Positions 10,683-50,099 of a stretch of DNA of 64,000 nt are shown piece by piece. The translations under genes were made by a program, and so were the position numbers. The notes below the pieces were generated by a model that was not told where the DNA came from, did no database searches, and was given only the letters and a program-made list of their open reading frames with translations. The stretch spans positions 336,365 through 400,364 of the forward strand of contig NZ_LN999835.1 in NCBI RefSeq assembly GCF_900044015.1, given 5' to 3'. The stretch is from Candidatus Hoaglandella endobia. GTDB lineage: Bacteria > Pseudomonadota > Gammaproteobacteria > Enterobacterales > Enterobacteriaceae. Numbering within the stretch: the first letter of the stretch is position 1; every line of letters starts with the position of its first letter.

Positions 10683-12272
10683 TTATATTAATATGAGCTT
10701 CAATATTAGCAAATACAAGCTACCAGCCAGTATAATAGCCACAGGTAGCGTTAATACCCAAGCCATCAAAATATGTTTTATTGTCTTGCCTTGTACGCCG
10801 CTACCATCAACCAGCATAGTACCGGTTACCGCTGATGACAAAACATGGGTAGTTGACACCGGCATGCCGGTATAGCTGGCGATACAGATGGATACTGCCG
10901 CGGTCATCTGCGCCGACAGTCCCTGAGCATAGGTCAGGTCTTGTTTACCGATCTTCTCACCAATGGTGGTGGAGATCCGACGCCAGCCAATCATGGTTCC
11001 TAACGACAGCGCCAGAGCGACGGCAATAATAATCCATATTGGCGCATACTCAACCATATCCAATAAATCCTGGCGCAGCTTACTCAATAAGCGCTTATCC
11101 ATAGTGGACGTTTCCGGAAACTTAGCCACTTTATCAGCAGTGTCGGCAATACAAATCAGCAGGTAACGAACGTAAGAGCGCTCTTCCGGATTTAATTGCT
11201 CATAACTGTTAAGTTTGCCAAACAGTAATAAAGCTCTATTAATAGCTATTAGAGCGTTAGACAGATTACAGGAAAACTCCTTACTTCCTGCATGAGCCTG
11301 ACTATTCGCTAATTTGGCGCTACTATCGGCCGATAGTAACAGAGGCGAACCACTGTTGGCAGTAGCGGTATTTACTGCCCCTAGAGGAGGAGGTGTTATC
11401 TGCTCATTATAATCGATGACGTGAAATAAGGAGCTATGATGCTGGATGTAGTATTGCTGTAAATAATTTATGGCATCTCTGGTGCGGCTAATATCGTAAC
11501 TGCTGGCGTTCATATTAACCACAAAACCCGCTGGAGCAACCCCTATAAGCATCACCATAATAAGTCCGATACCTTTCTGACCGTCGTTAGCGCCATGAGA
11601 AAAGCTTACCCCGACGGCAGAAATGATTAGGGCGATGCGGGTCAAAAATGGTGGTTGACTCTTGCCATCTTGTTTTTCTCGTTCTACAGGCGTTAAATGA
11701 AGACGCTGGCGCTTTTGGGTGTTACTCAAGGAGTAGTGGCGCAGGATCAATACCATCGCCCCAGCTAGCACCAATCCTACTACCGGCGATATGATAAGCG
11801 ACAAAAAAATTTCAATTAATTTAGGAGTGTTCAGTGCCTGCATCACTGAGTTATCACTTACTAGTGCATTGGTCAGACCAATTCCTATGATAGCCCCAAT
11901 AAGGGTGTGCGAGCTAGAAGCTGGTAAACCGAAATACCAGGTACCAAAATTCCACAAGATTGCCGCTAGTAGCATAGCAAATATCATTGCCAGGCTATGA
12001 GCAGAGCTCACATTAAGCAATACATCGGTTGGCAAGAGATGAACGATGGTATAGGCCACGCTCAACCCTCCCATCCATACTCCAATAAAATTAAATACGC
12101 CAGACATGGCGCTCGCTAGTTGCGAGCGTAAGGCACGGGTGTATATGACGATTGCCACGGCATTTGCGGTATCGTGAAAACCATTTATCGCTTCATACAC
12201 CAAGACAAAAATTAATGCGAGCACCAACATTAAACCAGTCTTGAGTTCCAGGCCAGTAAATAAATGTAGCAT
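10683..12272 (-). CDS. pitA: Low-affinity inorganic phosphate transporter PitA
   Basis: PitA is an inner-membrane metal-phosphate/H+ symporter. The 529-residue protein is longer than E. coli PitA (499). It shows the duplicated PHO-4 signature regions: [16 protein letters not shown] near the N terminus and [13 protein letters not shown] in the middle, plus [16 protein letters not shown] near the C terminus, with about ten hydrophobic segments. The extra length is in the central hydrophilic loop around residues 290-345, which is poorly conserved. In E. coli pitA lies in the same neighbourhood as prlC-rsmJ; the uspA, uspB and dtpB genes between them are gone here. Confidence 0.94.
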
Positions 12273-44010: not shown

Positions 44011-46698
44011 TTATGCCAGACGCGGGTTAACTTTATCAGCATCGATACCTAATTTGATAATGGCTTGCGTTACTACATCAGTATCGATATCGCCGCATTT
44101 AGCTAACGCTCCTAATGCTGCTACCACTACATAACTGGCGTCAACTTCAAAGTGATGCCGCAGATTTTCGCGGCTGTCGGAACGGCCAAAACCGTCTGTG
44201 CCTAAAACACGGAATTCACTGGCCAGGATGAAATTACGGATCTGCTCTGCAAATAGTTTCATATAATCAGTAGAAACTACCACTGGAGCAGTGTTCATCA
44301 CACTAGCTACATAAGGCACGCGTGGTGTTTGCGTCGGGTGCAACATGTTCCAACGTTCACAATCTTGGCCGTCACGCGCTAGCTCGGTAAACGAGGTCAC
44401 ACTGTAGACATCTGATCCCACACCATACTCTTCTAACAGCATATTAGATGCTTCACGAACATGACGCAAAATAGCTCCTGATCCCATTAATTGTACCTTA
44501 CCTTTTTTGCCTTCTAGTGTTTCTAGTTTGTAGATCCCTTTACGTATCCCCTCCTGTGCCCCTTTTGGCATTGCCGGCATGTGATAGTTTTCATTTAGTG
44601 TGGTCAAGTAATAGTAAACATTTTCTGGATTTTCGCCGTACATACGAATCAGACCGTCGTGCATTATAACCGCGACTTCATAAGCGTAAGCTGGATCATA
44701 AGAGATACAATTCGGGATGGTCAGTGCTTGAATATGGCTATGGCCATCTCCATGTTGCAGCCCTTCACCGTTTAAAGTGGTACGCCCAGAAGTTCCACCA
44801 ATCAAGAAGCCGCGAGCTAACTGGTCTCCAGCTGCCCAACATAGATCACCAATACGCTGAAAACCAAAAATTGAATAATAGATGTAGAACGGAATCATCG
44901 GTAAATCGTTAGTACTATAGGAAGTGGCTGCAGCTAGCCATGATGAAGCTGCACCCAGTTCGTTAATACCTTCTTGTAAAATTTGACCATTCTCATCTTC
45001 GCGGTAGTAGGCTACCTGCTCGCGGTCCTGCGGGATGTACTGCTGTCCATGCGGACTATAGATTCCAATCTGACGGAACAAACCTTCCATACCGAAAGTA
45101 CGGGCTTCATCTGCAATAATAGGCACTATTCTATTTTTAATCGACTTATTTTTTAACATAATGTTGAGTGTGCGCACAAAAGCAATAGTAGTTGAGATTT
45201 CTTTTTTCTGCTCTACAAACAGCGAAGAGAAGTCTTCAAGCGTAGGTAATTCCAGCGGTTTGGTAAAGTTCTTCAGACGGCTAGGCAGGTAACCTTGTAG
45301 CGCTTTGCGGCGCTCGTGCAGATAAGTGTGCTCTGCTGAACCTTCTTCAAAAGTTATATAGGGTAACGATTCTATTTTATTATCGTTAATAATATTGTTT
45401 AGATTAAAACGATCACGGAAGTATCGTACCCCTTCCATATTCATTTTCTTTACTTGATGCGCAATATTCATACCTTCTGCGGTCATGCCCATACCGTAAC
45501 CTTTGATCGTATGAGCCAATATAACAACAGGTTTGCCTTTGGTGTTTTTTGTTTTTTGCAGTGCAGCGTAAATTTTCTTTGGATCGTGGCCACCACGATT
45601 CAGTGCCCAAATCTCTTCGTTACTCATATCTTTTACCAACGCTGCTGTTTCAGGATATTTACCGAAGAAATGCTCGCGTACGTATGCGCCGTTTTTCGAT
45701 TTGAAAGTTTGATAATCGCCATCAACAGTTTCATTCATCAATTGAATCAGCTTGCCAGTTGTATCCTTGCGCAGTAGTTCATCCCAGCGGCTACCCCAGA
45801 TTACCTTTATTACTTCCCAACCAGCTCCACTAAATACACCTTCAAGCTCTTCGATGATTTTACTGTTGCCGGTCACTGGGCCATCTAGACGCTGTAAATT
45901 ACAATTGATGATGAATACGAGATTGTCGAGCTTCTCACGAGTAGCTATAGTTATAGCACCCTTAGATTCAGGTTCGTCCATCTCACCATCTCCCAAGAAA
46001 GCGTACACTTTCTGGTTGGTGGTGTTTTTTAAGGCGCGATGGTTAAGATATTTAAGGAATTTAGCCTGGTAAATGGCGCTGATTGGTCCTATACCCATAG
46101 ACACCGTAGGAAACTGCCAAAATTCCGGCATCAGCTTAGGATGTGGGTATGATGATAGCCCTTTTCCATGTACTTCCTGGCGGAAGTTGTTCATCTGCTC
46201 TTCTGTCAGCCGGCCCTCAAGAAAGCTACGAGCATAAACACCAGGAGAAATATGCCCTTGAAAATAAACCAGATCACCACCATCTATATCATTACGCGCG
46301 TGGAAAAAATGGTTAAAGCATACTTCATAAATAGTAGCCGAAGACTGGAATGATGCCATATGACCACCTAGGTCTAAATCTTTTTTTGAAGCGCGCAAAA
46401 CAGTCATAATGGCATTCCAACGAATAGCTGAACGGATACGACGTTCAAGCTCCAAGTTCCCGGGATATTCCGGCTCTTCTTCGACAGAAATTGTATTTAT
46501 ATAATTACTGATAGTAACAGTTTTTGCTTTAGTAACATCTTGAACGATGTTTACTCCATTTTTTTTTGCTTCGTTTATGACCTGATTAATCAGAAATTTG
46601 GCACGTTCAATACCTTCTTCACAGATAACTGATTTGATCGACTGTAACCAGTCTAGTGTTTCTATTGGATCTACATCATTGTAAAAACATTCTGACAT
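44011..46698 (-). CDS. aceE: Pyruvate dehydrogenase E1 component
   Basis: AceE decarboxylates pyruvate with thiamine diphosphate and acetylates the lipoyl groups of AceF. It has 895 residues against 887 in E. coli. The thiamine-binding motif GDGEMDEPESKGAI...NCNLQRLDGPV, the active-site loop region and RTTLNGEGLQHGDGHSH are intact, and the C terminus AIIKLGIDADKVNPRLA is conserved. AGAGGAA lies 9 bases before the ATG. Unlike E. coli, no pdhR precedes it; the 701-bp upstream spacer is treated separately. Confidence 0.97.
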   Translation of the reverse strand: MSECFYNDVDPIETLDWLQSIKSVICEEGIERAKFLINQVINEAKKNGVNIVQDVTKAKTVTISNYINTISVEEEPEYPGNLELERRIRSAIRWNAIMTVLRASKKDLDLGGHMASFQSSATIYEVCFNHFFHARNDIDGGDLVYFQGHISPGVYARSFLEGRLTEEQMNNFRQEVHGKGLSSYPHPKLMPEFWQFPTVSMGIGPISAIYQAKFLKYLNHRALKNTTNQKVYAFLGDGEMDEPESKGAITIATREKLDNLVFIINCNLQRLDGPVTGNSKIIEELEGVFSGAGWEVIKVIWGSRWDELLRKDTTGKLIQLMNETVDGDYQTFKSKNGAYVREHFFGKYPETAALVKDMSNEEIWALNRGGHDPKKIYAALQKTKNTKGKPVVILAHTIKGYGMGMTAEGMNIAHQVKKMNMEGVRYFRDRFNLNNIINDNKIESLPYITFEEGSAEHTYLHERRKALQGYLPSRLKNFTKPLELPTLEDFSSLFVEQKKEISTTIAFVRTLNIMLKNKSIKNRIVPIIADEARTFGMEGLFRQIGIYSPHGQQYIPQDREQVAYYREDENGQILQEGINELGAASSWLAAATSYSTNDLPMIPFYIYYSIFGFQRIGDLCWAAGDQLARGFLIGGTSGRTTLNGEGLQHGDGHSHIQALTIPNCISYDPAYAYEVAVIMHDGLIRMYGENPENVYYYLTTLNENYHMPAMPKGAQEGIRKGIYKLETLEGKKGKVQLMGSGAILRHVREASNMLLEEYGVGSDVYSVTSFTELARDGQDCERWNMLHPTQTPRVPYVASVMNTAPVVVSTDYMKLFAEQIRNFILASEFRVLGTDGFGRSDSRENLRHHFEVDASYVVVAALGALAKCGDIDTDVVTQAIIKLGIDADKVNPRLA

Positions 46699-46925
46699 AC
46701 TACTATTCCTCTTATCTTAATTAGCATAATTCAAATTTATATATTAGACCCATACCCCATAAAGCGCAGAATAAGAACCAATATTATAGCTTATAGCCTA
46801 AGACTGTTTACCATTTAGGTAAAATAATTCTCCATCTATTACCATAATATACTTCATACTAAGTATCTCTTTCCCGATCGACTTAGTAGTTATTCTGCGT
46901 CTACTATCGTTAGTTTTAGCTAGAG

Positions 46926-46946
46926 CTCGCTGTATTATACAGCGAG
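46926..46946 (+). terminator. Perfect hairpin followed by TTTT
   Basis: CTCGCTGTAT and ATACAGCGAG form a perfect 10-bp inverted repeat around one base, in practice an 8-bp stem with a 5-nt loop, followed by TTTT on the plus strand. It has the form of a rho-independent terminator on plus, but no plus-strand gene lies upstream. It may be a leftover of a deleted gene or a structured element in a minus-strand leader. Confidence 0.4.
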
Positions 46947-47332
46947 TTTTGTGATACGCTTAACTGCTTATTTAATTATCCCCCTCTAGAAGATAATCTT
47001 TCATCTTGGTACAGCCATTCTTAACGAAATAGATTTTTTTTAAATTATTTAAAATAAATATAATATATTATAAATTGGATTAACAGATTTTAATAATATT
47101 AAAAGGAAGGTAGCTAAAAATTTACTTATCTTCTCAGCAAAGAGTGCAGACTAAATTAGTCATACGAATCATATTTTTACTGTTACAAATGTAACAAAGT
47201 ATTTATCTTTATGTAGATAACAATTTTTTATTTAAATCATCAAATTAAATACCTTTAAGCTTAATAAAAATTATTATTTTATAGTTAGTTATAACACCTC
47301 TTCTATACCATTCGTATAGAAATATCGCAGTA

Positions 47333-47357
47333 ATTATACAATACTGGTATCACCAGT
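47333..47357 (-). promoter_or_regulatory. GntR-type operator-like palindrome overlapping a -10 box
   Basis: ACTGGT-ATC-ACCAGT (47343-47357) is a perfect palindrome with the GGTnnnACC core of PdhR (TTGGTnnnACCAA) and FadR (CTGGTnnnACCAG) operators. On the minus strand a TATAAT (47333-47338) follows 4 bp later, reading toward aceE. No good -35 is seen. It sits about 645 bp from the aceE ATG, where the promoter of a now lost pdhR would be expected. The regulator identity is inference. Confidence 0.45.
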
Positions 47358-47399
47358 TTCTTTTAAAAACTAGTACTATGAATAATGACTAACTCTAGT

Positions 47400-50099
47400 T
47401 TAGTGCAATTTTCCGTGGCAATGTTTGAATTTACTCCCTGAATTGCAGGGGCAGGGGTCATTACGTCGAACTTTTTGCCTTTTTTTCTTTAGATTAGTAG
47501 TAGTATTATTAACCTCTGACTGAAGCAGCAGAGACTGCGGTTGTTTTTTATTTAGGCTTTTGATCTCCTTATCCAGTAATTTAACTTCTTTTGGCATACG
47601 CACCTGTACTTTGCTCAGCGTGCTGATTACTTCATATTTTAATGATTCGAGCATAGCAGCGAACATTTCGAAAGATTCTCGCTTGTACTCTTGCTTAGGA
47701 TCTTTCTGCGCATAACATCGTAAATGAATACCTTGACGCAGATAGTCCATCGCTGCTAAATGATCTTTCCATAGTGAATCTAGAGTTTGTAACATGACGT
47801 TTTTCTCAAAATTGCGCATTATATCGCTACCAAGAATCTTCTCTTTACTTTGGTACTGCGCGAGCATCTGTTCGAGCACACGCTCGCTTAGTATCTCTTG
47901 ATGCAGACTAGGTTCATCATCCAGCCATTGGTCGATAGGAATTTCCAGATCAAAATCATACTTCAGGCACTGCTCTAGACCTGATACATCCCATATTTCT
48001 TCCAGCGACTGCGGCGGAATATAGTTATCAATAATAGTCTTAAGCACATCTTCGCGAAGACTTTTAATAGAATCGCTAATATCTGCTACATCAAGTAACT
48101 CATTGCGCTGGGTGTAAATAGCTAGGCGCTGATCGTTGGTAACGTCATCATATTCTAACAACTGTTTCCGGATGTCAAAATTACGGCTTTCTACTTTACT
48201 CTGAGCGTTAGCTATAGCCTTATTAACCCACAGATGTTCGATAGCCTCACCCTTCTTCATACCCAATTTGCGCATCATACGAGAGACTCGATCCGATGCA
48301 AAAATGCGCATCAGGGGGTCTTCTATCGACAAATAAAAACGTGATGAGCCAGCGTCTCCCTGACGACCAGATCGACCACGCAGCTGGTTATCAATACGTC
48401 GAGATTCATGGCGCTCGGTCCCGATAATATGCAAACCGCCTGCAGCTAGTACAGCATCATGCCGCTGCTGCCAGGCATCTTTAATAGCAGAAATATTTTT
48501 ATTATTGGTTGGTGGAGTGTTCATCGCAGTAATCTCCTCCTGCCAGCTGCCGCCCAGTACAATATCGGTACCGCGGCCGGCCATGTTAGTGGCAATCGTC
48601 ACTGCATACGGTTGACCAGCCTGTGTGATGATATTTGCTTCCATAGCGTGAAACTTGGCGTTGAGCACTTTATGGGGAATACCTACTTTATTTAGCTCTC
48701 TTGAAATTAGTTCAGATTTTTCAATAGAAATTGTACCAACCAAAACCGGTTGCCCGCGCCCGTTACAGGTTTTGATATCCTCTATAATAGCTTTAATTTT
48801 TTCTTGTTCAGTCATATAGACTAAATCAGAGAGATCTTTGCGACGCATCGGCCGATTAGTGGGCACAACGACGGTATCCAATTGATAAATTGAACTGAAT
48901 TCAAACGCTTCGGTATCGGCAGTTCCGGTCATACCTGCCAGCTTTTCATATAAACGGAAATAGTTTTGAAAGGTAATAGACGCTAGCGTCTGATTTTCTT
49001 TTTGTATAGCCACGTTTTCCTTCGCTTCTACTGCCTGATGCAGCCCATCAGACCAACGACGACCTGGCATTGTGCGCCCAGTATGTTCGTCGACAATGAT
49101 TACCTTGCCATCTTTAACAAGATAGTCAACATTGCAAGAGAATAGTACATGGGCGCGTAGGGCAGCGTTAATATGGTGCATTAATATGAGATTAGCTGAC
49201 GAGTAAAGCGACTCACCCTGTTTCATGAGTCCGGCTTTTATTAAGAGCTCTTCAATCAATACTAATCCCCGTTCAGTTAGGTGCACTTGGCGAAACTTTT
49301 CATCCACAGAAAAGTGACCTTCACCCTGGAAACTATCAGAATCTTCCTTATCCTGTCTAATTAAATACGGTATTAATTTATTTATGCGTCGATACATATC
49401 AGAGTTGTCTTCTGCTGGACCGGAGATAATCAGCGGGGTGCGCGCTTCATCTATTAAGATAGAGTCCACCTCATCCACAAGCGCGTAATGCAACTTACGT
49501 TGTACCCTTTCTGCTGAGCAGAACGCCATGTTATCGCGTAGATAATCAAATCCATACTCATTATTGGTGCCATAAGTAATATCAGCCGCGTAGGCTATAC
49601 GTTTGGCCGGTACCGGAAGTCCTGGCTGGTTAATGCCAACGCTAACCCCCAAGAATTCAAACAGTGGGCGGTTATTTTCCGCATCGCGTAGCGCTAGGTA
49701 ATTGTTTACTGTAACTATATGCACACCTTTACCGCTTAGAGCGTTTAGATACGCTGGTAGCGTGGCGGTTAGGGTTTTTCCTTCACCAGTACGCATTTCA
49801 GCAATGCAGCGATCGTTAAGCACCATACCGCCAATCAACTGTACATCAAAATGGCGCATACCGAACACACGCTTACTAGCTTCACGCACTACTGCAAATG
49901 CTTCTGGTAGTAGGCTGTTAACCGAAGTTCCTTGTTTAATACGGTTTCGAAATTCGGTAGTTTTGGATGTTAGTTGTTCATTACTAAGCTTTTCCATTGC
50001 TGGTTCAATTTGGTTAATAGTGTCTACCACTCTGCTCATGCGACGTAGAATACGATCGTTACGGCTTCCAAAAATTTTGGTAAGTAGTCTTGCTAGCAT
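47400..50099 (-). CDS. secA: Protein translocase ATPase SecA
   Basis: SecA drives preproteins through SecYEG. It has 899 residues against 901 in E. coli. Walker A is [13 protein letters not shown], the DEAD-like Walker B is [23 protein letters not shown]2 has [14 protein letters not shown], and the C-terminal zinc finger [15 protein letters not shown] that binds SecB and lipid is complete. The ATG is at 50099. In E. coli SecA synthesis is controlled by translational arrest of SecM upstream; here secM is a relic, so that control is gone. Confidence 0.98.

Follow-up and report, generated by a model that had tools for sequence, protein, structure and literature searches.

A fossil pdhR promoter with a broken operator, and a palindrome that may be a secA terminator relic, between secA and aceE of Candidatus Hoaglandella endobia

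The spacer between secA and aceE in the mealybug symbiont Candidatus Hoaglandella endobia is, as judged by colinear alignment to relatives, a pdhR pseudogene with a fossil promoter. A palindrome in this spacer had been read as the fossil pdhR operator, but that reading was not borne out: the orthologous operator lies at 47154-47170, 188 bp nearer aceE, and we are very confident that the palindrome is not its counterpart. The explanation that best accounts for both sites, and which we find somewhat more credible than not, is a broken pdhR operator at 47154-47170 together with a palindrome that is the stem of a hairpin at the 3′ end of secA. Spacer and palindrome would then most likely reflect ordinary decay within a reduced, symbiont-type genome.

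Results

The genome comprises 637 kb in three contigs, the main one of 628,221 bases, and is the only one of its genus among the genomes compared. Its AceE is 88-89% identical to the AceE of Sodalis-type genomes, and we therefore regard it as a reduced, Sodalis-allied genome of symbiont type. In the window, the 64,000-nucleotide stretch of contig NZ_LN999835.1 that we analysed and whose numbering we use, aceE (44011-46698, 895 aa) and secA (47400-50099, 899 aa) are both intact and on the minus strand. The spacer between them is 701 bp long with 27% G+C, against 44% for the window, and is enriched in inverted repeats, with 26 six-bp-arm placements against 5.5 expected from the shuffled spacer. 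An Rfam scan of 46000-48600 gave no matches up to an E-value of 1, and a tRNA search of 46000-48000 found none. The spacer would be a deletion junction left by genome reduction, in which the genes that stand between secA and pdhR in Sodalis-type genomes were apparently lost from the locus and pdhR itself decayed.

Other reduced genomes also have secA adjoining aceE or one or two genes away (L093, L146, L147, L148): the gap holds no genes in Gullanella (L093) and apparently none in L147, a coaE-like gene in L146, and coaE and guaC in L148 (gene names assigned by eye). The secA-aceE interval has undergone the same loss repeatedly across these genomes.

A remnant of the pdhR promoter region occupies approximately 47115-47250 on the minus strand, and includes an upstream TTTGATGATTT box, the core promoter, the operator, and the pdhR Shine-Dalgarno region. 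Local alignment of this block to four relatives gave z-scores of 24.5, 27.4, 9.4 and 12.4, with Sodalis-type relatives at about 24-27, and no shuffle matched the observed score; we therefore place the orthologous PdhR operator at 47154-47170 (minus strand), where GATTCGTATGACTAATT aligns to the relatives' AATTGGTATTACCAATT. Both half-site cores are broken, GGT having become CGT and ACC having become ACT. The published PdhR box is AATTGGTnnnACCAATT, of which GGTnnnACC is needed for tight binding (PMC7660256). Among the aceE loci examined, 98 have a PdhR-type operator about 900-1260 bp upstream of the gene, and their consensus has the operator AATTGGTAttACCAATT with TATgGACAgaAGGTGAATACTTTGTTACTTTA ahead of it, in the order TGGACA-17-TACTTT then operator; the spacer has TATCTACATAAAGATAAATACTTTGTTACATTT then GATTCGTATGACTAATT at nearly the same spacing.

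The alignment stays colinear from the promoter through the operator and Shine-Dalgarno region and on across the first half of pdhR. The original prediction that pdhR ancestrally stood here and is now noncoding is thus supported, both by the promoter (z 9-27) and by matches to first-half coding DNA. These first-half remains align over 46760-47114 (minus strand), firmly only for about 46920-47114, with z-scores of 3.3, 4.0 and 4.5 against three intact genes and 0.9 against the Doolittlea pseudogene, and their multiple alignment extends through the helix-turn-helix codons. For the second half of pdhR, alignment to relatives found no counterpart in the spacer; the next 180 bp gave a significant pdhR match in only one of four comparisons and an aceE-leader match in none of four. 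A perfect 10-bp inverted repeat of the type CTCGCTGTAT-A-ATACAGCGAG (arms 46926-46935 and 46937-46946), with TTTTGTG next on the plus strand, sits within the aligned helix-turn-helix remains.

The genome, rated 99.97% complete, was searched for the GntR family, as the original prediction had proposed: no GntR, FCD or PdhR relative exceeded the cut-off, and both family searches detected their E. coli positive control. Among the DNA-binding proteins kept in this small genome is a 144-aa SlyA/MarR-like helix-turn-helix protein (L002 1375-1809, near G000:C1:179800), labelled by reading its sequence.

The locus has the same downstream genes as the Enterobacterales pdhR-aceEF-lpd promoter, to which the remnant aligns, operator included, but here the pdhR gene is ruined and its operator is broken. 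At the same locus, Doolittlea and Sodalis sp. Ffu likewise keep relics of pdhR and a recognisable promoter ahead of an intact aceE; they represent an already-known pattern in reduced symbionts, in which a regulator is lost and its promoter retained. Their operator (L050, L058) is AATTTGTATTACCAATT, with one half-site broken; in contrast, both half-sites are broken here, and the locus no longer has the genes that stood between secA and pdhR.

The palindrome lies at 47343-47357 on the minus strand, 43 nt past the secA stop, and reads ACTGGT-GAT-ACCAGT on that strand. The plus-strand letters ACTGGTATCACCAGT are present as predicted and occur once genome-wide, but the description as a perfect 15-bp palindrome holds only for a 6+3+6 inverted repeat, as the central ATC is asymmetric. 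Its end is 645 bp from the start of aceE, in agreement with the distance of about 645 bp first given. It shares the GGTnnnACC core of the Enterobacterales PdhR operator, set within a palindrome of 15-17 bp, and has two mismatches to the PdhR consensus ATTGGTnnnACCAAT; its resemblance to an operator stems from this core, which was picked post hoc, and no GntR/FCD regulator is present to bind it. Sites within two mismatches of the consensus number 52 genome-wide, against 54 in the control. An exact consensus match, ATTGGTCAGACCAAT, at 11868-11882 falls within a 529-aa membrane-transporter-like reading frame and is probably due to chance.

As the orthologous pdhR operator the palindrome was rejected: it stands upstream of 47154-47170 and outside the aligned block, and the first 150 nt past secA, which contain it, gave z-scores of -0.8, -0.5, -1.0 and 1.3 against DNA upstream of pdhR in four relatives. 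The order of elements is also reversed, since the -10 of the pdhR promoter precedes the operator and here TATAAT is downstream of the palindrome, which puts the palindrome on the wrong side.

The position of the palindrome points instead to secA. Of 42 other secA loci, 24 (hand count) have as their best hairpin one of 8 or more pairs, including 4 or more G-C pairs, that starts 6-49 nt past the stop; these include four Sodalis-type genomes, with ACGCCCGG-TTCG-CCGGGCGT-TTTA at +32. The palindrome, starting at +43, is likewise a stem-loop soon after the stop codon, and folded alone reaches -6.5 kcal/mol. In Doolittlea a different stem occupies this position after secA (z -3.2), and Gullanella, in which secA and aceE are also adjacent, has no stable fold within the first 70 nt past secA. 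Compared with the Enterobacterales secA-mutT rho-independent terminator, a short stem soon past the secA stop (+32 in its Sodalis-type form), the stem here has six pairs rather than eight and three G-C pairs rather than seven, and lacks a clear T-run on the secA strand.

We put at about an even chance, from its position, that the palindrome is the stem of a secA terminator, either weak or eroded. The secA transcript would end in a 3′ hairpin derived from a terminator that has become poorer in G+C and no longer has its T-run. No proper T-run directly follows the stem on the secA strand (tail ATTGTATAATT), and we therefore class the palindrome as a likely relic or weak form and not as a proper terminator. 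A terminator scan called the stem only on the plus strand, where no gene precedes it. In longer RNA an alternative stem of ACUAGUUUUU with AGAAACUGGU beats the palindrome stem, and in the RNA piece 47290-47362 still another fold does; these competing folds and the absent T-run keep the terminator reading from being firm. We link palindrome and Sodalis terminator by position only, because the two regions show no base-by-base alignment. When the stretch with the palindrome was aligned to the entire secA-pdhR interval of a Sodalis-type genome, the best score was 25 on either strand, which we judge meaningless because both strands score alike. We infer for this stem either descent from the secA terminator or action as one; the GGTnnnACC core would then be coincidental.

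Discussion

The main rival to a terminator stem is that the palindrome arose by chance as decaying, AT-rich DNA drifted and has no function, a reading we hold to be plausible if rather doubtful. The shuffled spacer should hold, on average, 0.6 palindromes of 6-3-6 form whatever their core, and because the spacer exceeds its shuffles in inverted repeats, finding one is unremarkable in itself; PdhR-like sites stand at the control level genome-wide, and the palindrome has neither a T-run nor a -35. Against chance, a 6-bp-arm palindrome that bears the GGTnnnACC core is expected only 0.001 times per shuffled spacer, a figure that reflects the post hoc choice of core, and the palindrome is located where relatives carry a hairpin. 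Descent from an additional upstream PdhR operator is improbable: the palindrome has the core and only two mismatches to consensus, and relatives do carry further sites, a second 139-142 bp upstream of the main operator (21 loci) and a third at 312 bp (7 loci), but its distance of 188 bp from the eroded operator fits neither spacing, the nearest Sodalis-type loci lack such a site near the pdhR promoter, and the DNA flanking the palindrome fails to align. We accordingly rejected both the second and the third upstream site as its identity.

The remaining readings give the palindrome or its neighbourhood a present function, and each strikes us as very improbable. Adjacent to the palindrome are TATAAT (47333-47338, minus strand) and a hairpin with an 8-bp stem and 5-nt loop (47301-47321, minus strand, TTCTATAC-CATTC-GTATAGAA; -8.5 kcal/mol, z -3.6), both exactly where they had been predicted. 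From these a live sigma-70 promoter at 47333 was proposed that would give aceEF-lpd a long structured leader, and indeed the TATAAT is perfect and the 73-nt RNA 47290-47362 folds at -20.1 kcal/mol (z -3.9). A consensus scan does not support this promoter, however: it reported none using a -10 at 47333 and found no -35 partner at 16-18 nt spacing, and TATAAT occurs on the minus strand of the spacer at chance level (4 against 2.4 expected, P 0.22). The pdhR promoter can be recognised 110-150 bp farther downstream, the 73-nt piece that folds strongly takes in DNA upstream of the supposed start, and its fold is not singled out because spacer windows outside it attain similar z-scores. It is just as hard to credit that the palindrome is under selection as a site for another remaining DNA-binding protein, for example of the SlyA/MarR type, or as part of an aceEF-lpd leader; if it did belong to a structured leader, that leader would control aceEF-lpd in the absence of PdhR.

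Returning to the fossil pdhR promoter, we propose that its surviving core (about 47180-47222) would drive aceEF-lpd, freed from its repressor and reading constitutively across a leader about 480 nt long. Because the operator at 47154-47170 is broken, aceEF-lpd is probably read constitutively from this old promoter, which we infer to be still active. The core promoter is easily recognised and the pdhR coding DNA barely so, and this difference suggests that the promoter is still used, unrepressed; with one genome to go by, unequal rates of mutational decay may instead explain why it has outlasted the coding DNA.

The locus carries a caution for comparative work: a palindrome close to consensus, found near where an operator is expected, can mislead, and the orthologous site must come from alignment. 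For the symbiont, it offers a clear case in which the repressor has been lost, the promoter is still readable, and the operator is decaying, and this combination of repressor loss and operator decay is consistent with pyruvate dehydrogenase being expressed constitutively in a reduced genome.
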